Source of the DNA: Anaeromyxobacter dehalogenans 2CP-C
Lineage (GTDB): Bacteria; Myxococcota; Myxococcia; Myxococcales; Anaeromyxobacteraceae
Direction of reading: 5' to 3'
DNA length: 64,000 nucleotides
Assembly (NCBI RefSeq): GCF_000013385.1
Contig: NC_007760.1
Span: 4,004,001-4,068,000 of the forward strand
Shown here: piece after piece, positions 1,799 through 64,000 of the stretch
Layout: the number at the start of each line of letters is the position of its first letter
How positions within the stretch are numbered: position 1 is the first letter of the stretch
Notes under the pieces: model-generated
Told to the model about the DNA's origin: nothing
Databases searched by the model: none
What the model saw: only the letters and a program-made list of their open reading frames with translations
Made by a program: the position numbers and the translations under genes

Positions 1799-4660
1799 AT
1801 GTCCGACACCACCCCGAAGCCGCCGCGCCGGCGCCGCTGGCTCCGCGCCGGCGCCGTCCTCGGCGCGCTCCTGGTCCTCTACACCGCCTTCGGCTTCCTC
1901 GCCGCGCCGTCGCTCGTCCGGCGGATCGCGGTGAAGCAGGCGTCGGCAGCGCTCCACCGGCCGGTGGAGATAAACCGCGTGCGGGTCAACCCGCTCGCGC
2001 TCTCGGTCACGGTGGAAGGGCTGCGGGTGAAGCACGCGGACGGCGCGCCGTTCGCGGCATGGGACTCGCTCCACGTCCGGCTCGCCCCGCTCCGCCTGCT
2101 CGCCGGCGATCTCGGCTTCGCCGAGATCCGCCTGGTGCGCCCGGCGCTGCACGTCGGCCTCGACCCGCGCGGCGCGCTCACCTTCGAGGACCTGCTGGCC
2201 GGCGACCCGGAGGCGGCGGAGCCGGGCGCCCCCGCGGCCCCGGAGAAGGAGGGTCGGCTGGGGCTCTCCATCGGGCGGCTCGCCGTGGAGGAGGCGCGGG
2301 TGGTCTTCCGCGACGCCACCCGCAAGCCGGCGTTCGAGACCACCCTCGGCCCGCTCACCGTCCGCCTGGAGTCCTTCCGGACCCGCGGCGGCGGCGACAG
2401 CCCCTACTCGTTCGCCGGCACGACCGAGTCGGGCGAGACGTTCCGCTGGACCGGCACGGTCCGCAGCGCGCCGCTCCGCTCCTCGGGCACGCTCGCGTTC
2501 GAGCGGATCCAGCTGCCCAAGTACGCGCCCTACATCCACGACCAGGCGCCGGTGGACCTCGCCGAGGGCGTGCTCGACCTCGAGACCGGCTACGAGCTGG
2601 CCTGGGGCGCGGACGCCCGCGTGCTGCGCACCTCCGGCGGCAAGCTGACCGTGGAGCGCCTCGCGCTCGCGCCGCGCGGCGAGAGGGACGCGCCGGTGCG
2701 GCTGCCGCGGGTGGAGGTCTCCGGGATCCGGGTGGACGCGCTCGCGAAGGAGGCGTCGGTCGCGACGGTCGCGATCCGCGGCGGAGCGGTGCGGGCCCGC
2801 CTGGAGGAGGACGGGAAGCTCGAGCTGGCGCGGATGGCGCCGCCGCCCTCCCCTGCGTCGCCGGAGCCCTGGCGGTGGTCGGTGGGCGCGCTGGCGGTCT
2901 CCGGCCTGGCGGTGGACGTGGAGGATCGCTCGACGGCGCGCCCGGTGCGGCTCCCGCTCACCGACGTGGCGGTGACGCTGGAGGGGATCCGCCCCGGCCC
3001 GGAGACGGCCTGCCCGCTCACCGCCTCGCTCGCCTGGAACGGGCGCGGCCGGCTCGCGGTCAAGGGCGAGGTCCGCCCGTTCGGCGATCGGGGCACGCTC
3101 GCGCTCGAGGCGGAGGAGCTCGACGTCGTGCCGCTCGCGCCGTACCTCGACGCGTCGCTGGTGGCGCGGCTCACCGGCGGGCGCGCCGGCGCCAAGGCCA
3201 CCATCGGCTACGAGCTCGGCGGCAAGGCGCCGCGCTGGACGTTCGCCGGCGACGTGCGGCTCGACGCGCTCGCGGTGGCGGAGGCGGGCAACGAGGACCT
3301 GCTCCGGTGGAGGGCGCTGGAGGTGACCGGCATCGACGCCGCCTCCACCCCGCCGCGCGCCACGGTGCGCCGGGTGCGGCTCCTCGAGCCGAGGGTCAAG
3401 GCCTACGTCTGGGAGGACGGCGCCACCAGCGTGGCGCGCGCGCTCCCCCCGGCCCCGGCGGCGCCCGCGCCCGCCGGCCCGGCCTGGCGGACCGCCATCG
3501 GCAGCGTCGAGGTGGTGGGCGGGCGGGTCGCGCTGGTGGACCGCTCGGTCACGCCGGCGGCGGTGGTCAACCTCACCGGCGCGCAGGCCACGGTGACGCG
3601 CCTGTCCTCGGATCCGAAGGTCCGGTCGAGCGTGGACGTGCGGCTCCAGGTGGAGGGCGCCTCGCCGGTGCGCGTCACCGGCACGCTCAACCCGCTGCAG
3701 CAGGACGCGTACACGGAGCTGGTGGTCGCGTCCGAGGGCGTGGACCTCTCGCCGCTCGGCCCGTACGCCGGCAAGTTCCTCGGCTACGGGCTGCAGAAGG
3801 GGAAGCTCGACCTCGATCTCAAGTACACCGTGGTGAACCGCGCGCTCACCTCCACCAACGTGGTCCGCGTGAACCAGCTCACCCTGGGCGAGAAGACCGA
3901 CAGCCCGGACGCGACCAAGGTCCCGGTGCGGCTGGCGCTGGCGCTCCTGCAGGATCGCGAGGGCGTGATCCTGCTCGACGTGCCGGTGGAGGGGAACCTC
4001 GACGACCCCGAGTTCCGCCTCGGCAAGGTGATCTGGCGCACCATCCTGAACGTGCTCGTGAAGGTGGCCACCTCGCCGTTCACCGCGCTCTCGTCGCTGG
4101 TGGGCGGGGACCAGGCCGACCTGTCGCTGGTGGAGTTCGCCCCGGGCACCGCCGAGCCGCTGCCGGCCGCGAAGGAGCGGATCGCGCTGCTGGCGCGGTC
4201 GCTCGGGCAGCGGCCCGCGCTCGGCCTCGAGCTGGAGGGCTCCGCCGACGCGACGCAGGACGGCCCCGCGCTGCGGCGCGCCGCGCTGGAGCGCGCGCTC
4301 CGCCGGGCCAAGGCCGAGACGCTCCGCTCGGCCCCGGCGAGCCTGGACGAGGTCACGCTCGGCGCCGAGGAGCGCGCGCGCCTCGTGAAGGCCGCGTACC
4401 ACGCGGCGTTCCCCGCCCCGCCGACCGCGACGAAGGGCGAGGCCGCGCCGGCGCCCACGCCGCAGGAGATGGAGGAGCGGCTCGCGGCGGCCGCCCAGGT
4501 GCCGGAGGACGCGTACCGGGCGCTCGCGGCCGAGCGGGCGCAGCGCGCGCGGGAGGCGCTCGTCGCCGCCGGCCTGGACCAGGCGCGGCTGTTCCTCGCG
4601 CAGGGCGGCGAGCGGGCCCGGAAGGAAGCCGGCGCGCGCGTCTACTTCAGCGTGCGCTGA
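1799..4660 (+). CDS. DUF748 domain-containing AsmA-like envelope protein
   Basis: 953 residues with one N-terminal membrane anchor (about residues 18-36) followed by a long beta-rich periplasmic region. The text of the repeats (VEINRVRVNPLALSVTVEGL, DLSPLGPYAGKFLGYGLQKGKLDLDLKYTV) is typical of DUF748 proteins, relatives of AsmA/TamB-type bridge proteins implicated in lipid transport between the membranes. The last 150 residues carry an OmpA-like stretch (ALGLELEGSADATQDGPALRRAALERAL) and a charged helix. Lipid transport is inferred from the fold family only. The gene is followed 17 nt downstream by the convergent DUF3943 gene. Confidence 0.85.
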   Translation: MSDTTPKPPRRRRWLRAGAVLGALLVLYTAFGFLAAPSLVRRIAVKQASAALHRPVEINRVRVNPLALSVTVEGLRVKHADGAPFAAWDSLHVRLAPLRLLAGDLGFAEIRLVRPALHVGLDPRGALTFEDLLAGDPEAAEPGAPAAPEKEGRLGLSIGRLAVEEARVVFRDATRKPAFETTLGPLTVRLESFRTRGGGDSPYSFAGTTESGETFRWTGTVRSAPLRSSGTLAFERIQLPKYAPYIHDQAPVDLAEGVLDLETGYELAWGADARVLRTSGGKLTVERLALAPRGERDAPVRLPRVEVSGIRVDALAKEASVATVAIRGGAVRARLEEDGKLELARMAPPPSPASPEPWRWSVGALAVSGLAVDVEDRSTARPVRLPLTDVAVTLEGIRPGPETACPLTASLAWNGRGRLAVKGEVRPFGDRGTLALEAEELDVVPLAPYLDASLVARLTGGRAGAKATIGYELGGKAPRWTFAGDVRLDALAVAEAGNEDLLRWRALEVTGIDAASTPPRATVRRVRLLEPRVKAYVWEDGATSVARALPPAPAAPAPAGPAWRTAIGSVEVVGGRVALVDRSVTPAAVVNLTGAQATVTRLSSDPKVRSSVDVRLQVEGASPVRVTGTLNPLQQDAYTELVVASEGVDLSPLGPYAGKFLGYGLQKGKLDLDLKYTVVNRALTSTNVVRVNQLTLGEKTDSPDATKVPVRLALALLQDREGVILLDVPVEGNLDDPEFRLGKVIWRTILNVLVKVATSPFTALSSLVGGDQADLSLVEFAPGTAEPLPAAKERIALLARSLGQRPALGLELEGSADATQDGPALRRAALERALRRAKAETLRSAPASLDEVTLGAEERARLVKAAYHAAFPAPPTATKGEAAPAPTPQEMEERLAAAAQVPEDAYRALAAERAQRAREALVAAGLDQARLFLAQGGERARKEAGARVYFSVR

Positions 4661-8845: not shown

Positions 8846-11263
8846 TCAGGCCCCGCGGAACCGCCGCAGCCGCAGGCTGTTCGTGACCACGCTCACGCTG
8901 CTGAACGCCATCGCCGCGCTCGCCAGCACCGGCGAGAGCATCAGCCCGAACGCCGGGAACAGCACGCCCGCGGCCACCGGGATCCCGACCACGTTGTACG
9001 CGAACGCCCAGAACAGGTTCTGGCGCATGGTCCGCATGGTGCGCCGGGAGAGCGCGATCGCGTCGGCCACCGCGCGCAGGTCCGGCCGCATCAGCGTCAC
9101 GTCGGCGGCCTCGAGCGCCACGTCGGTGCCGCTGCCCATGGCGATGCCGATCTCCGCCCGCGCCAGCGCCGGCGCGTCGTTGATGCCGTCGCCCACCATG
9201 GCCACCACGCGGCCCTCCGCCTGCAGCCGCTCCACCTCGGCCACCTTGCCCTCCGGCAGCACGCCCGCCACCACCCGCTCCACGCCCGCGGCCTTCGCCA
9301 CCGCCTCGGCGCTGCGGCGCACGTCGCCGGTGAGCATGACGACCTCGAGGCCCATGCGGCGCAGCCGCGCCACCGCGTCCCGCGAGGTCGGCCGCAGCTC
9401 GTCCGCGACGGCGAGCAGGCCGGCCAGCTTCCCGTCCACCGCCGCGAACACCGCGGTGCGTGCCTTCGCGGCGAGCGCGCCCGCCTCGGCCTCCAGCGGC
9501 GCGGTCGAGACGCCCTCCGACTCGAGCAGCGCCGCGTTGCCCACCACCACGCGCCGCCCCCCGGCGAGGCCCCGCGCGCCGCGGCCGGTGATCGACTCGA
9601 ACGCCTCCACCTGCGGCACCGCCGCGCCCCGCGCCGTCGCGTGCGCCGCGATGGCGGCCGCGAGCGGGTGCTCGCTGGCGCGCTCCACCGCCGCGACCAG
9701 GCCCACCAGCGCGTCCTCGTCCACCGGCGCGCCGGGCGCGAGCCGCACCTCGGTCACCGCCGGCTTGCCCAGCGTGAGCGTGCCGGTCTTGTCGAGCACC
9801 ACCGTGTCCACCGCGTGCGCCCGCTCCAGCGCCTCGCCGCCCTTCAGCAGCACGCCCAGCTCGGCCCCCTTGCCGGTGGCGACCATGACCGCGGTCGGGA
9901 CCGCGAGGCCCATCGCGCAGGGGCAGGCGATGACCAGCACGGCGACCGCGGCCACCAGCGCCCGCACCGCGGGCGCGGCGTCGGCGGCCACGAACCAGAC
10001 CACGAAGGTGGCGATGGAGAGGGAGAGCACCACCGGCACGAAGATGCCGCTGATGCGGTCGGCCAGCTTCTGGATGGGGGCGCGCGAGCCCTGCGCCTCG
10101 CGCATGAGCTTCACCACGTGCGCGAGCACCGTGTCCGCGCCCACGCCGGTGGCCCGGTAGCGGAACGACCCGGTGCCGTTGACGGTCGCGCCGATGACGC
10201 GATCGCCGGCGCGCTTCTGCACCGGCAGCGGCTCGCCGGTGAGCATCGACTCGTCCACCGCGCTCGTCCCGGAGACGATCTCGCCGTCCACCGGCAGCCG
10301 CTCGCCCGGGCGCACCACCACCACGTCGCCCTCGCGCACGTCCTCCACCGGCACGTCCACCTCCGCGCCGCCGCGCACCACGCGCGCGGTGCGGGGCTGG
10401 AGCTGCATGAGCTTGCGGAGCGCGACCGAGGTCTGGCGCTTCGCGCGCGCCTCCATGGTGTTGCCCACCAGGATGAGCGCGATGATGAGGACGACCGCCT
10501 CGTAGTACACGTCGGGCGGGACGCCGCGCGACACGAAGAAGCCGGGCGCGACGGTGGCGGCGAGCGAGAGCAGGTACGCCGCGCCGGTGCCGACCGCCAC
10601 GAGCGTGTTCATGTCGGCCGAGTGGTGGCGGAACGCCGCCCAGGCGCGGGTGTAGAAGTGCCGCCCGGCCCAGGCCATCACCGCGGTGGTGAGCGCGAGC
10701 AGCCCGTAGGAGAGCACCTGCTCCGGGATCGCGTAGAGCCAGGGCAGCGCGCGCTCCAGCACCGGGTCGAGCACGCGCATGCTCCAGCTCATGAACGGGT
10801 CGGTGGGCGCGCCGAGCCCGTGGTGCGCGTGCGCCGCCATGAGCGGCATCGACGCGATCATCGCCACCACGCCGGCGGCGAGCGCCACCAGGGCGCGGGC
10901 GCGCAGCTCGCGGAACTCCTTCGCGCGGGCCGCGTCCTGCTGCTCCAGCGCGTCGGCGCCCGGCTCGGACAGCGCGGCGCCGTAGCCGGTCGAGCGCACC
11001 CGCTCGATCAGCGCCTCGGGCGCGGCCACCGCCGGATCGTAGGAGATGGCCGCCTCGGCGGTCATGAGGTTGACGCTGGCGTCGAGCACGCCCGGCGCGC
11101 CGGAGAGCGCCTTCTGCACGCGCGCCTGGCACGCGGCGCAGGTCATGCCCGAGACGTTGATGGTGACGCGCGCGCGGCGGTCTTCGGGGCTCGCCTCGAC
11201 GGCGGCGGCGCGCGCGGCGGCGGGCTCGCGCCCGCGGACGGTGGTCTCGACCCGGTCGCTCAT
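8846..11263 (-). CDS. copA: Cu(I)-exporting P1B-type ATPase
   Basis: 805 residues from the ATG at 11263, chosen because it overlaps the cupredoxin stop (ATGA). One N-terminal heavy-metal domain has GMTCAAC (C42, C45). The actuator domain follows TM helices 1-4. The membrane CPC motif is in [16 protein letters not shown], the phosphorylated aspartate in [11 protein letters not shown], the HP motif in [12 protein letters not shown], and the hinge is [14 protein letters not shown] together with CsoR and a cupredoxin points to Cu+/Ag+ export into the periplasm. The frame stays open upstream to 11797, but that extension overlaps the cupredoxin gene and is not coding. Confidence 0.95.
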
Positions 11264-58844: not shown

Positions 58845-59992
58845 GCGAGACCGTCCTCGAAGGCCTCCTCTTCGACGGACGAAGCGCCGCCGCGACGCCG
58901 GTCCGGATCGCGATCGCGGGGGGCGTCCTCACGATCACGACGCCCGACGGCGCGCTCCTCTCCGAGCACGGCCTCGCCCGGCTCACCGTGACCGAGGCGT
59001 TCGCCACGGCGCCCCGGCAGATCGGACTGCCCGGTGGAGGGGTGGTCGAGGTGCCGGACGGCGCCGCCCTCGCCGCGGCGCTCAGCGCGGCGGGCCGGCG
59101 CCCTGGCCTCGTGGACTGGCTCGAGGCGCGCTGGCGCACCGCGCTCGCGGCCGTCGTCGTATGCGTCGCGGTCATCGTCGCGGCTTACCTCTACGGGCTC
59201 CCGGCTGCCGCGGGCTGGATCGCCCGGACGCTGCCGGCGAGCGCCGAGCGGCGGCTCGGGGACGGTGTCCTCGAGCTCCTCGACGGCCACGTGCTCCGGC
59301 CCACGGCGCTCTCGGAGGAGGAGCAGCGCGCGGCGCAGGAGCGGATCGACGAGGCGGCGCGGCTCGGGGCGCCCGCGGTGAAGTACCGTCTCCTCTTCCG
59401 GTCCGCCGGGTTCGGGCCGAGCATGAACGCCTTCGCGCTCCCCGGCGGCACGGTGGTCGTGCTCGACGGTCTGGTGCGCGGCACCGCGAGCGACGATCGC
59501 CTCGTCGCGATCGTCGGCCACGAGCTCGGGCACGTGGCCCGGCGCCACTCGGCGCAGGCGCTCCTGAAGAGCGCCGGCGTGGGCGCCGCGGCGAGCCTGC
59601 TCTGGGGCGACTTTTCTGGCCAGGCCGCGGCGATTCCCGCCGCGCTCGCGATGTTCGACTACTCGCGCGACGCCGAGCGCGAGGCCGACGAGGACGCGGT
59701 CCGCTTCCTGCGCGCCGCCGGCCGCTCCGCCCTGCCCATGGCAGAAGCGCTCTGCCTGCTCCAGTGCGTCGAGCGCGAGGCGTCGCTGGGCGCGATGCCG
59801 AGGCTCCTCTCCACGCACCCGAAGCTCGCGGAGCGGATCCAGCACGTGCGCGAGCTCCGGGGCGTGGACCCCTCGTACCGCTGCCCGGAGCCGGCGCCGG
59901 CAGGATCGCCCTGCGGTCCTGACGAGGACGACGGCGACGACGAGCCGGGGACGTGCGGGGCGGGGGAAGCGCCGCGCCCCAGCGGCGACTGA
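58841..59992 (+). CDS. Membrane-associated M48 metallopeptidase
   Basis: 383 residues from a GTG overlapping the DUF898 stop. One membrane helix (TALAAVVVCVAVIVAAYLYGL, about 100-120) precedes the peptidase domain with the zinc site HELGH (H227, E228, H231) and the third ligand E281 in DAEREADEDA. N-terminal 95 residues are a small beta domain. M48 members such as HtpX and LoiP cleave membrane or periplasmic proteins. The acidic C-terminal tail (DEDDGDDE) is unusual. Substrate unknown. Confidence 0.92.
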   Translation: MSETVLEGLLFDGRSAAATPVRIAIAGGVLTITTPDGALLSEHGLARLTVTEAFATAPRQIGLPGGGVVEVPDGAALAAALSAAGRRPGLVDWLEARWRTALAAVVVCVAVIVAAYLYGLPAAAGWIARTLPASAERRLGDGVLELLDGHVLRPTALSEEEQRAAQERIDEAARLGAPAVKYRLLFRSAGFGPSMNAFALPGGTVVVLDGLVRGTASDDRLVAIVGHELGHVARRHSAQALLKSAGVGAAASLLWGDFSGQAAAIPAALAMFDYSRDAEREADEDAVRFLRAAGRSALPMAEALCLLQCVEREASLGAMPRLLSTHPKLAERIQHVRELRGVDPSYRCPEPAPAGSPCGPDEDDGDDEPGTCGAGEAPRPSGD

Positions 59993-60011
59993 GCGCCGCT
60001 CGCTAGCGCGC

Positions 60012-60323
60012 TCACACTCCCCGAAGACGGACCACCTTGCCGTGTACGCGCGCGACGACTTCGAGTTCGCCTCCGAGCCCCTCCACGTACCTCCGCAGCG
60101 TCGAGAGGAGATGATCCTCCCTCCGTTCGGCGCGCGACAGCTCCGACTGCTTCATCTTGGCGGCGCGGGCGACCTGCTCCTGGGTCCTCCCGGCGGCCAG
60201 CCGGAGTTCGCGCAGGTTCATCTCCAGGACCTCGCGCTCGGCGAAGCGCTCCGCCTCGGCGATCTCCTCGCGCGTGAAGAGCTTCTTCTCGATCTGCTTC
60301 CAGCTCTTCGTCTTGCGCTTCAT
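60012..60323 (-). CDS. XRE-family antitoxin (HigA-like)
   Basis: 103 residues. A basic N-terminus (MKRKTKSWKQIEKKLFTREEI) leads into a helix-turn-helix of the Xre type (LRELRLAAGRTQEQVARAAKMKQSELSRAERREDHLLSTLRRYVEGLGGELEVVARV). The start codon overlaps the toxin stop by 4 nt (ATGA). In this family the antitoxin binds the toxin and represses its own promoter. The start is certain, but the partner toxin appears damaged (see the neighbouring entry). Confidence 0.85.
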   Translation of the reverse strand: MKRKTKSWKQIEKKLFTREEIAEAERFAEREVLEMNLRELRLAAGRTQEQVARAAKMKQSELSRAERREDHLLSTLRRYVEGLGGELEVVARVHGKVVRLRGV

Positions 60324-60668
60324 CGGTTGCCTTCCTTCTCCAGATGCTGGAGGTGCGCATCCCAGAGCCGCTCTGCCTTGGGGATCGTCCGCTCGTAGAA
60401 CCGCTTGTCGTTCCCCTTGTCACCGCCGATGAGGAGCAACGCTTCCCGCTTCGGGTCGAACGCGTAGATGATCCGTAGCGGGCTCGCGCCGCGCTTCGGG
60501 CGAAGCTCGCGGAGCGGATGCCTCGTCCCCTTGAGGGCGCTCGAGTACGGCTCGCCGAGCGTGATGCCTACCTGCTCGAGGATCTTTACGCCTTGGAGCA
60601 CGGCCTTCTGCTCCCGAGCCCTCGATCCACCGTTCGAACTCCTCGGTCGCGTTGACGACGACGGGCAT
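60320..60668 (-). pseudogene. RelE/HigB (Gp49-like) toxin, apparently frameshifted
   Basis: The C-terminal reading frame (EQKAVLQGVKILEQVGITLG to the stop at 60320) shows the toxin core RELRPKRGASPLRIIYAFDPKREALLLIGGDKGNDKRFYER. The N-terminal start at 60668 (MPVVVNATEEFERWIEG) is in a different frame. They would join if about 8 nt were restored near 60615. The GTG at 60601 would give only 93 residues, short of the usual 115-120. It is either a broken toxin, an assembly error or a truncated but active form. Confidence 0.75.
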
Positions 60669-60709
60669 GCGGCTCTCTACCGCTCGCGTCGGACATCAAC
60701 CGGATGGTG

Positions 60710-60738
60710 AATATAGGCTCCACCACATATGAGGTCAA
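60710..60738 (-). promoter_or_regulatory. Sigma70-type promoter of the toxin-antitoxin operon
   Basis: On the minus strand TTGACC (60738-60733) is followed after exactly 17 nt by TATATT (60715-60710). This is a near-consensus housekeeping promoter, rare in such GC-rich DNA. The start codon at 60668 would follow a leader of roughly 35 nt. HigA-type antitoxins usually bind across such promoters. Confidence 0.7.
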
Positions 60739-61040
60739 GCTCATCCACGTTCGCCAGCCCAGCGGCCACTTGGCGTCCTCATCGGGTTCGACATCGACGA
60801 GGCGCTGACCGGCGATGCGGGTCTCCCCGTCAGGCGAACCGGCTCGACTCCGGTGCGCTTCGCCACGCCGTCCCCGAGCTCGCGAGCGTCGTCGTGCCCC
60901 ACAGCGGACTCTCCCGCGGCATGGCCGCGATGAGCTCCGGGTGGAGACTCGTCGTCTTTGGCTCGTTCGACGCGAGGAGCAGCGGCGGCCGCGGGCTCAG
61001 CGGTGCCGAGGGCCGTGTCAGCCCGGTTGAGGCGCGAAGC
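60739..61040. other. 302-nt stretch without a gene upstream of the island boundary
   Basis: No open frame here has family motifs, a good ribosome binding site or matching codon bias. It lies between the toxin-antitoxin promoter and the tRNA-Gly fragment with its terminator. It may be decayed sequence. Confidence 0.4.
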
Positions 61041-61076
61041 TAGAAAAGAAAAAACCCCCGGCCGAAGCCGGGGGTT
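61041..61076 (-). terminator. Rho-independent terminator (native to tRNA-Gly)
   Basis: On the minus strand AACCCCCGGC (61076-61067) pairs perfectly with GCCGGGGGTT (61062-61053) across a four-base loop, followed by TTTTTTCTTTTC. It lies 3 nt after the tRNA-Gly 3' fragment, the position expected for the terminator of that tRNA gene before an element was inserted. Confidence 0.85.
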
Positions 61077-61079
61077 AAC

Positions 61080-61102
61080 TGGAGCGGGAAAAGGGATTTG
61101 AA
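61080..61102 (-). other. 3' end of tRNA-Gly gene, probable attachment site of an integrated element
   Basis: The 23 nt read, on the minus strand, as a T-loop TTCAAAT, T-stem half CCCTT, acceptor half TTCCCGC, discriminator T and encoded CCA. Acceptor TTCCCGC with discriminator T matches tRNA-Gly, whose 5' acceptor strand is GCGGGAA. The bases upstream (ending AACGC) do not pair with CCCTT, so the rest of the tRNA is missing. This is the pattern left when an element integrates into a tRNA 3' end. A 1-nt uncertainty in either boundary is possible. Confidence 0.8.
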
Positions 61103-61256
61103 GCGTTGCGTTAGATGACCAAAACCCGAGGCGGGACGCGCGCTTGCCGCACAAGGGCTCGGAACGACTCGAAAAGCAGGTCAGCACGCCAGTACACGGG
61201 AGTGCACGCCGGATCGTGGCGCGGAACGGCCCAACGGCAACCTGACGGCAACGCAT
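61103..61256. other. Left-end flank of the integrated element
   Basis: 154 nt between the tRNA fragment and the first element gene, without an open frame. Short direct repeats such as AACGGC near 61226 and 61234 are visible. It may contain integrase-binding sites. Nothing more can be said from sequence alone. Confidence 0.35.
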
Positions 61257-61688
61257 CTACGGCTTGAAGACGGGCCCACGATCGTTCGCGAGTCGAGCAA
61301 GCTGCGCCTCCTTGCGCTTCTTCTCCGTCCTCGACGCCAAGTGCTCGCGGAAATCGATGATGCCGTGAGCGGGATCAGGGAGCGGATTGACTTCCGGGTC
61401 CTCCCAGACCTTGAGCGCCTCCGTGTAGCACTCGGCGCAGGTGACCGCGTACACGCCGATCGAGGCGAGCTTGAGGCCGTCCGTGTAGTGCTTGAACGCA
61501 GCTTCAGGTGTCGTCTTGCTGGCCATCGACACCGAGAGGAGTCCCTGGTCGCGCTCCTTGACCTCGAACGCGATACGCGCGATGCGGCCCTCGTGCAGGT
61601 GCGCCGGATGCACCTGTCGGAAGAGCTGGTCATCAGAGCTGGGCACCTGCGGGCCGCGCGGCTCCGCGCCTTTCGGGCTGTCACTCAC
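61257..61688 (-). CDS. Uncharacterised island protein A (partner of the upstream gene)
   Basis: 143 residues from the GTG at 61688, overlapping the upstream gene by 8 nt; a GTG at 61703 is the alternative. Characteristic text is DQLFRQVHPAHLHEGRIARIAFEVKERDQGLLSV, then YTDGLKLASIGVYAVTCAECYTEAL and DPAHGIIDF. Similar small proteins occur beside a larger partner in other mobile regions, from memory. No enzymatic motif is visible. A joint function of the two proteins, possibly defence or toxin-antitoxin, is inference. Confidence 0.7.
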   Translation of the reverse strand: MSDSPKGAEPRGPQVPSSDDQLFRQVHPAHLHEGRIARIAFEVKERDQGLLSVSMASKTTPEAAFKHYTDGLKLASIGVYAVTCAECYTEALKVWEDPEVNPLPDPAHGIIDFREHLASRTEKKRKEAQLARLANDRGPVFKP

Positions 61689-62835
61689 GGCCCTGCACCT
61701 CACCTCTTAGCTCGTTCACGAACGTAGACACGCCGATGTCCTCGTCGGGCGCGCCCACGAACGAAACCTGCGCCTCGCGGGAGTCTCCTGACTTCACGTT
61801 CACAGCTTCCATGGACACCAGCTCGGCCGCGAAGTTGAACTCCGCTGAGACCTCCCAGTCGTCGAACGTCCACTCCGCGCGGATGTGTCCTGCTTCCGTC
61901 GCGTAGAGGTGCGGCTGCGGGAGCTCGTCGCGCGCCATGAGGCCGAGGAGCACCTGCCTCGCCCAATCGACGGCGTCTCTGGACGGAGCTTCTCCGTGCT
62001 CGCCGTCGGACCAGCCTTTCTTGAGCGCGAGAAGCTCGTCGAGGCGCCGCTCGATACGCAGGGCTTCTGCGGGGTCAACTACGTCGACGATGTTGAGGTC
62101 CCTGACCTCGTCGATGTTCTTGAGGGCATCGTTCCGATCGTAGGACCCGACTGCGGCGAGCTCAACGCGGGTAAACGCATCGTCGCGGAGCGCGTTCGCG
62201 AGCTGTGTCGTCTGGATCCCGGAGAACTCGACGTCGAAGGCCCCCTCGTCCGTCCGCAACCGGAACTGTCCGCGCTCCTTATCCAACGCGACGACCGTCC
62301 CGACCAGCTCCACATCCTTCTGGTAGGTGTTCGCACGCTGGAGAACGATCCGCTTTCGGACTTCCTGGTTGTACGAGACCTTCCGCTGTCCTCCGGGAGA
62401 GTCGAGGACGAGTTCCTCTCCTGGCCGGAGGTGCTTGCCGAAGTTGCCGAACAGCGGGATCACGTTCTCCGGAAACTCGGGTGGCTTCCTATCGGAGCCG
62501 ATCGCGTCAACGTAGTCCGTCACCAGGTCGCGTGCCGCATCGAACGGATCCCACTCGTGTGCGAGAACGCCTTGCTGCTGCGGCTCCTCCGTCCGCTTGA
62601 GCGCGAGAACGGCCGATCCCGGTCGGATTTCTTGCAGTGCGAGCTGGAAACTCGACTCGAAGCCCTTCGGCACTCTTGCTCGCCCATACCGCTGCTTGAA
62701 GAGCTCCTTCGCGACGCGAAGGACAAGGTCGCGGTACGCGACAAGGTCGGCGAGAACGTCAACGGGAACTTGCGCGTCCGCGAAGCGCGCGCCACGCAGG
62801 ACCGGCTCGACGAATGGCTTTCGCTTGTCGGTCAT
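61681..62835 (-). CDS. Uncharacterised island protein B with GWSDGE motif
   Basis: 384 residues from the ATG at 62835. No family is recognised. The N-terminal half has RGARFADAQVPVDVLADLVAYRD and a beta-rich middle (VVALDKERGQFRLRTDEGAF). The C-terminal third contains LLALKKGWSDGEHGEAPS and PHLYATEAGHIRAEWTFDDWEVSAEFN, a motif pair I have seen in conserved hypothetical proteins of accessory DNA. It is cytosolic by composition. Its stop overlaps gene A, so the two are co-translated. Confidence 0.75.
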   Translation of the reverse strand: MTDKRKPFVEPVLRGARFADAQVPVDVLADLVAYRDLVLRVAKELFKQRYGRARVPKGFESSFQLALQEIRPGSAVLALKRTEEPQQQGVLAHEWDPFDAARDLVTDYVDAIGSDRKPPEFPENVIPLFGNFGKHLRPGEELVLDSPGGQRKVSYNQEVRKRIVLQRANTYQKDVELVGTVVALDKERGQFRLRTDEGAFDVEFSGIQTTQLANALRDDAFTRVELAAVGSYDRNDALKNIDEVRDLNIVDVVDPAEALRIERRLDELLALKKGWSDGEHGEAPSRDAVDWARQVLLGLMARDELPQPHLYATEAGHIRAEWTFDDWEVSAEFNFAAELVSMEAVNVKSGDSREAQVSFVGAPDEDIGVSTFVNELRGEVQGRE

Positions 62836-62988
62836 GCGGCTGAGTCCCGGAATGGCCCCGAGCCTGTTCTACCCCGGATGGCCGGAGCGGTGGCCTTTTC
62901 TGCCACCACAGGCAACTCCAAGCACGGGTGCTCGATCGCTCCCACCTGAACATCTTAGCAGCGGGCCGGACACCGCGGCAACGCTCGG

Positions 62989-64000
62989 TCAGCCCGACTG
63001 TGGTTCTTTCTTCGTCCTTTCGCCTGCCTCCAGGAGCCTCACGACGAAGAAGAAGGGGTCAACCTCCATGTGCTCCCGAAGCTCGCCGGGCCTGAAGAAT
63101 GCCTTGATGAAGTCTGCTCCAAGGATGCCAAAGGCCCAGCCGATAGCATCATACAGCGGCTTGTACGTCGCTCCGAGCAGCAGCCCGACCGCGATCGTGT
63201 TGCCCGAAATCGCGAGTCGTTTGTGTGTCTTCCTAATCTCCGCAAACGTCTGATGGAGCTGCCGAACATGCTCCTCCGCCTCTCCCAGCACTTGCCGAAG
63301 TCGCTCTTCATCGCCGGCTGACCCAAACTGCGAAGCCGTTCGCGCCAGAGCGCGTTGAAAGCGCAGAAAGGCCTCCTCGTAGTCTTCGCGAAGCCGAAGC
63401 ACGGTCGACAGCGGAAGGTGCTTCAGGGAAGGAAGAATGATTCCAATCTTTAGGACATCTGGGTCATCTGCTAGGAGACTCCCTGATGTTGTCGTCCGAA
63501 TGAAATTCGCAGGGAGCTTCTGGCGTCGCGTGGCGAATTCGTTTGCCGTCGCCCAGTTCTCCGCAATGATGTCTTCATCGTCAACTCTCGCGACGACGTG
63601 GTACCGCTCGTCTTCAATGGAGAGTTCTTCAAATCGCGAAGCAAACTCGCTTGGGTCAACCAACTCCACTTCGCGAGGGACCGGAGCGATGATTCCTGAC
63701 TTCACTTCGCGAAGATGTCTGTACGCTGGCTCAAGACAAGGGCGAAGGTTTGGCCCTTCGACGAACTTGACGCCGATCTCAGCCTTGAACTCGAAATCCG
63801 GTGACGTCAGAGGATCGACGAGCAACGCTGCCTGCTTTGCGAACAAAGCTAACCGCTTCTGATGATCTGGGGTGAGTGCGTGCCTTGCTGCGTCCACGGA
63901 GAGAAACAGCCCGTCTGTGCGTCGCGCCAGGTCGGGCAAGTCGGCGATGAGCCTCTGGATATTCGCGGCGAAGCTCCATTCGACGACGCCTAGATCATGC
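62989..64000 (-). CDS. Uncharacterised protein with C-terminal hydrophobic segment, 5'-truncated by window edge
   Basis: At least 337 residues: the frame stays open to the window edge and reads as coding upstream of the TTG at 63939 (HDLGVVEWSFAANIQRLIAD), so the real start lies outside. The middle is a long helix (LREDYEEAFLRFQRALARTASQFG, LRQVLGEAEEHVRQLHQTFAEIRKTHKR). Near residue 265, TIAVGLLLGATYKPLYDAIGWAFGILGADF could insert in a membrane. Base composition is much lower in GC than the core genome. No family recognised. Confidence 0.7.
   Translation of the reverse strand, partial: HDLGVVEWSFAANIQRLIADLPDLARRTDGLFLSVDAARHALTPDHQKRLALFAKQAALLVDPLTSPDFEFKAEIGVKFVEGPNLRPCLEPAYRHLREVKSGIIAPVPREVELVDPSEFASRFEELSIEDERYHVVARVDDEDIIAENWATANEFATRRQKLPANFIRTTTSGSLLADDPDVLKIGIILPSLKHLPLSTVLRLREDYEEAFLRFQRALARTASQFGSAGDEERLRQVLGEAEEHVRQLHQTFAEIRKTHKRLAISGNTIAVGLLLGATYKPLYDAIGWAFGILGADFIKAFFRPGELREHMEVDPFFFVVRLLEAGERTKKEPQSG

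Follow-up and report, generated by a model that had tools for sequence, protein, structure and literature searches.

The window, that is, the whole 64,000-bp stretch of DNA analysed here, comprises the bases 4004001-4068000 of the 5,013,479-bp single-contig genome of Anaeromyxobacter dehalogenans 2CP-C; a window coordinate is the genome coordinate minus 4004000, and the features near its right end and beyond it are collected in Table 1. The minus strand of 61080-61102 reads TTCAAATCCCTTTTCCCGCTCCA, which is exactly the 3' end of tRNA-Gly(GCC), composed of the 7-nt T-loop, 5 nt of the T-stem, the 7-nt acceptor strand, a T and the CCA. The remainder of the tRNA is missing, and no tRNA was reported by ARAGORN in the surrounding 3 kb. 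The fragment is single in the window, with no second match at three or fewer mismatches, while none of 100 shuffles contained even a 3-mismatch match to it. It is separated by 3 nt from an intrinsic terminator, whose hairpin was not equalled in any of 200 shuffles. Thus, the reading of an earlier note made from the sequence alone, namely a T-loop, half T-stem, half acceptor and CCA of an otherwise absent tRNA-Gly with a terminator 3 nt away, was confirmed. A tRNA-Gly(CCC) called by ARAGORN at window 4513-4589 (minus strand) was considered as the partner of the fragment and rejected, its geometry being wrong and the core match absent. The call sits in GC-rich, apparently coding DNA, and is probably spurious, because a CCC gene with a normal 3' end is found at genome 415485.

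The fall of the GC content, which had been placed beyond the fragment, is real (from 0.745 in window 1-59942 to 0.649), but its onset is near 59950 and not at 61080, because the stretch 59943-61079 (GC 67%) is itself foreign-looking. It contains a toxin-antitoxin-like pair, located between the chromosomal backbone and attL, and in two relatives (G007 and G001) homologous pairs stand on the inner side of another tRNA-Gly fragment, within a few hundred bp of it, which suggests that 59943-61079 was probably left behind by an earlier insertion. In a third relative (G004), the homology of the pair stops short. For 60745-61046, a weak tblastn match (E 8.5) had hinted at the decayed tail of an older integrase, but this found no support, the best score of 36 being set against a shuffle mean of about 37; the same shuffle test supported an older integrase tail beside the tRNA fragment of G004 (60 versus at most 55 in 200 shuffles).

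Table 1. Features of the tRNA-Gly(GCC) locus (window coordinates, unless marked as genome).
Feature	Position	Strand	Evidence or remark
Toxin-antitoxin-like pair	60012..60601	-	Gp49/HigB-type toxin 60320-60601, PF05973 E 1e-14; HTH antitoxin 60012-60323, PF13560 E 1e-7
Intrinsic terminator, displaced along with the tRNA fragment	61053..61076	-	hairpin -21.7 kcal/mol, then U-run
attL core, 23-nt tRNA-Gly(GCC) 3' fragment	61080..61102	-	one of just two exact copies genome-wide
Left arm (P arm) of element	61099..61253	+	second copy genome 4072499-4072655, 87% over 158 positions, E 5e-44
Arm repeat CCAACGGCAACCTGACGGCAACG, presumed integrase arm-type site	61231..61253	+	two CGGCAAC units 11 bp apart
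PDC-M32B candidate defence gene, first in island	61257..61703	-	PADLOC E 4e-39; phrog_31579
PDC-M32A candidate defence gene	61681..62835	-	PADLOC E 1e-108; phrog_30544
392-aa gene, left unit	62989..64167 (genome 4066989-4068167; runs past window end)	-	family match none
261-aa gene, left unit, next to 392-aa gene	genome 4068219-4069004	-	family match none
HNH nuclease, left unit	genome 4069310-4070698		
Mrr type IV enzyme, left unit	genome 4070730-4071647		
DUF6979 protein, left unit			
PDC-S54, right unit	genome 4072711-4073982		PADLOC candidate system
NO VEIN C-terminal protein, right unit	genome 4076698-4077801		
DUF932 / Rad52-like / exonuclease module, right unit	genome 4077862-4080904		
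EcsC, right unit	genome 4083913-4084962		
HNH_3 nuclease, right unit	genome 4085155-4086258		
HTH_17 protein of excisionase type, probable excisionase	genome 4087542-4087802		upstream of integrase gene
Tyrosine integrase gene	genome 4087807-4088940		PF00589 E 4e-35; ends 50 bp before tRNA
New terminator behind rebuilt tRNA	genome 4088956-4088986		supplied by element
Intact tRNA-Gly(GCC) gene	genome 4088991-4089065	-	ends in the same 23 nt

The partner tRNA gene and the extent of the island

In a genome-wide search, the second exact copy of the 23-nt core was located at genome 4088991-4089013, on the same strand and 23,911 bp rightward, where an intact tRNA-Gly(GCC) gene in the same orientation terminates in these 23 nt. 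This gene is apparently single-copy in the genome, and the corresponding stretch of the other tRNA-Gly genes (TCC, CCC) differs in 2-3 nt. An intact tRNA-Gly with an identical 3' end and a tyrosine integrase, predicted to lie to the right of 64000 (the integrase only as probable), are therefore present there, and with the partner core, the tRNA and the integrase all located to the right of the window, the fragment is recognised as the left end of an integrated island, as had been proposed. The island is 23,911 bp long and reaches genome 4088990 (window coordinate 84990), most of it being beyond the window, with a GC content of 64.9% between the cores versus 74.1% and 75.3% in the flanks. The terminator behind the rebuilt tRNA is stronger than the displaced one. 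The use of short and long terminators as chromosome and element markers was abandoned, since integrases of G004 and G003 are likewise followed by the short type.

The tRNA-borne islands of the Islander database (PMC4383910) likewise have a tyrosine integrase, a regenerated intact tRNA and a displaced 3' fragment at the opposite end in the correct orientation. By the same criteria, the intact tRNA-Gly(GCC) gene stands here at one end; the displaced fragment of the same tRNA, in the same orientation (23/23 nt, minus strand, 23,911 bp away), stands at the opposite end; and the integrase gene lies within the island and adjoins the tRNA, but is interrupted by a stop codon. In related genomes, this site is taken by other inserts instead of the island, and no wholly empty site was seen. 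The best explanation, to which the most likely two-element origin considered below is added, is that a 23.9-kb foreign tyrosine-integrase island occupies the 3' terminus of the single tRNA-Gly(GCC) gene, and this we hold to be very nearly certain. The insertion would have proceeded by crossover between an identical tRNA 3' end borne by the element and the chromosomal tRNA-Gly(GCC) gene, whereby the last 23 nt of the old gene and its terminator would have been pushed left (attL, 61053-61102), and a working tRNA with a new terminator rebuilt on the right (attR).

For strain 2CP-C, a genome of 5.01 Mb and 74.9% GC was described, with 15 regions of less than 70% GC, ten of them containing phage- or transposon-like genes (PMC2330069), and the island is likely one of these 15 regions; in the main text of that paper, no islands, integrases or tRNA-Gly boundary are mentioned. 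A literature search found no paper linking Anaeromyxobacter, integrase and tRNA-Gly. The kind of island is ordinary and well known, and its setting unusually clear. Its exact ends are now defined, in a soil bacterium that serves as a model for metal reduction and dehalogenation.

Arm repeats, probable composite structure and mobility

The 23-bp arm repeat of the left end has an exact copy at genome 4088903-4088925, which is 65 bp before the right-end core and inside the end of the integrase gene. Among the 21 genomes searched, the repeat occurs without mismatch only at both ends of the island and beside the tRNA-Gly of one relative (G011). Measured between their first positions, the right-side repeat and the core are 88 bp apart in G000, G011 and G027 and 87 bp apart in G009, so that this spacing is held at 87-88 bp across four genera despite the changed surrounding coding sequence. 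On either arm, the CGGCAAC units stand in direct orientation, one helical turn from each other, and look like arm-type integrase sites; the integrase would probably recognise the core and, via its N-terminal domain, these repeats.

A second copy of the 155-bp left arm, 87% identical, is found 7.4 kb into the island, the homology spanning from the edge of the core to the arm repeat, which has two mismatches in the inner copy. Because of this recurrence, the island is probably composed of two accreted elements, which most likely entered the same site successively: a left unit of 7.4 kb (genome 4065080-4072498), whose integrase end would have been lost, and a right unit of 16.5 kb (genome 4072499-4088990), which would have kept xis and int. 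The inner junction would have been lost by deletion; since the internal arm copy has no recognisable tRNA core (11/23 positions), the tandem insertion and subsequent deletion are what we infer. Tandem island arrays were described in the Islander database paper (PMC4383910), while here the tRNA fragment between the two presumed units is lost, and therefore the Islander rule of a fragment and an integrase for each member does not describe both units: in the left one the fragment is present and no integrase was found, whereas the right one has the integrase and the arm, without a recognisable fragment. The island CGI48 of Shewanella putrefaciens (PMC8978831) is also a single tRNA-borne island built from more than one element, but the elements joined in it differ in their targets (tRNA-Trp and yicC), while the two presumed units here have the arm sequence, and probably the target tRNA as well, in common.

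Alternatively, the island might be a single element, in which the inner copy of this arm is a duplication or a second binding region for the integrase or excisionase. Such a reading agrees with the coreless state of the internal copy, with the Pfam searches, in which no integrase remnant was seen to the left of it, and with the occurrence of a related arm with a lost core in G025. It is nevertheless unlikely, because the homology runs from the core edge to the arm repeat, as an element end would look, several fragments of the same tRNA are found in other genomes of the genus, and elements of this family appear joined in tandem in a related genus (G009). There, the right arm, the core and the left arm follow in succession, as expected of a tandem junction, and the array is either such a junction, formed by this element family outside the genus of the window, or else an assembled circle. 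On the reverse strand of its locus L142 (5620-5830), the core between the arms has 4 mismatches and is close to a contig end; in G027, non-tRNA DNA follows the core. The origin from two elements is thus retained as the probable one.

The frame of the integrase gene is interrupted by an in-frame TAG at genome 4088083-4088085, which may be a sequencing error, and an amino acid occupies this position in three full-length relatives. The stop codon suggests that the island can probably no longer move, unless it is helped in trans by a related integrase. The island would still be mobile if a shortened integrase were made from an internal start, if the stop were read through, or if a resident integrase served in trans, and an ATG ten codons past the stop would indeed open a 275-aa frame retaining the whole catalytic domain. 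The arm-binding domains of such integrases are N-terminal, however, and the 275-aa product would be devoid of this region, which, together with the amino acid found in place of the stop in the relatives, makes continued mobility rather improbable.

Cargo genes

Defence-related family matches were obtained for Mrr, PDC-M32A/B, PDC-S54 and HNH, two PADLOC candidate systems being among them, and the best guess from these matches is that the cargo may serve in phage defence. The neighbouring 392-aa and 261-aa genes, which lie in defence-like surroundings, gave no match in the Pfam, NCBIfam, PHROGs and PADLOC libraries, and a 333-aa uncharacterised gene follows PDC-S54. No capsid, portal, terminase or packaging genes appeared in the Pfam or PHROGs results among the ORFs scanned, in which the phage-type matches were limited to integration and recombination genes. 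Site-specific integration at tRNA-Gly genes is shared with ICEclc and PAGI-2-like elements of Pseudomonas (PMC13393423), but these elements (about 105 kb in ICEclc) are conjugative, whereas no relaxase, type IV secretion or conjugation genes were found here among the scanned ORFs, with the small ORFs covered in part.

The integration site in related genomes

The earlier note had proposed a comparison with related genomes lacking the insertion, and this yielded the same flanks with another insert and the cargo missing from eight species, but no wholly empty site. G004 has the left flank (91%) and the right one (93.5%) in common with the window genome, and its tRNA-Gly(GCC) gene is occupied by a different 8-kb insert, which bears a tRNA fragment and an integrase of its own, the latter only about 34% identical. 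The left part of the island yielded no DNA match in the eight further species of the genus, and the right part only short scattered ones. A wholly empty site was sought in 20 relatives and not found, an insert or decay being present at the tRNA in every relative examined; in G007, the left flank is at another location.

The relatives of the integrase with at least 63% identity are found at the same target, five ending 42-69 bp from tRNA-Gly(GCC) and one at a bare core, in other Anaeromyxobacteraceae, whereas those with at most 52% identity use tRNA genes for Leu, Ser, His, Glu and others, or have none nearby, with one distant exception, a 39%-identical relative at another tRNA-Gly(GCC). The choice of target therefore follows the relationship of the integrases, as for site-specific islands. 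That the 23-nt copy is a chance match or the debris of a duplicated or decayed second tRNA-Gly gene, unrelated to any insertion, is next to impossible, for although tRNA duplicates and pseudogenes do occur in bacteria, such an origin is contradicted by the integrase and the intact tRNA in the exact expected geometry, by the same geometry repeated in other genomes and by the GC shifts at both ends.

Judged from these genome sequences, tRNA-Gly(GCC) is an integration hot spot across the whole family, where elements with matching arm sites appear to accumulate and decay, and the ends of related islands become predictable, while candidate anti-phage genes are highlighted. The hot spot, the conserved arm sites and the probable two-element structure are a useful detail rather than a surprise. 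A tentative and rather doubtful extension would be that tRNA-Gly(GCC) is the main point of anti-phage-gene swapping in Anaeromyxobacteraceae, at which at least three distantly related integrase types stack their elements, and that the uncharacterised cargo, such as the 392-aa, 261-aa and 333-aa genes, includes undescribed defence systems.

Two minor observations concern the sequences adjoining the tRNA in other relatives. At locus L034 of G001 (9365-10750), an integrase-like ORF, belonging to a third type, reads straight across tRNA-Gly in antisense, and its predicted C-terminus is consequently translated tRNA. A similar decayed integrase-like end stands beside a tRNA fragment in G003.
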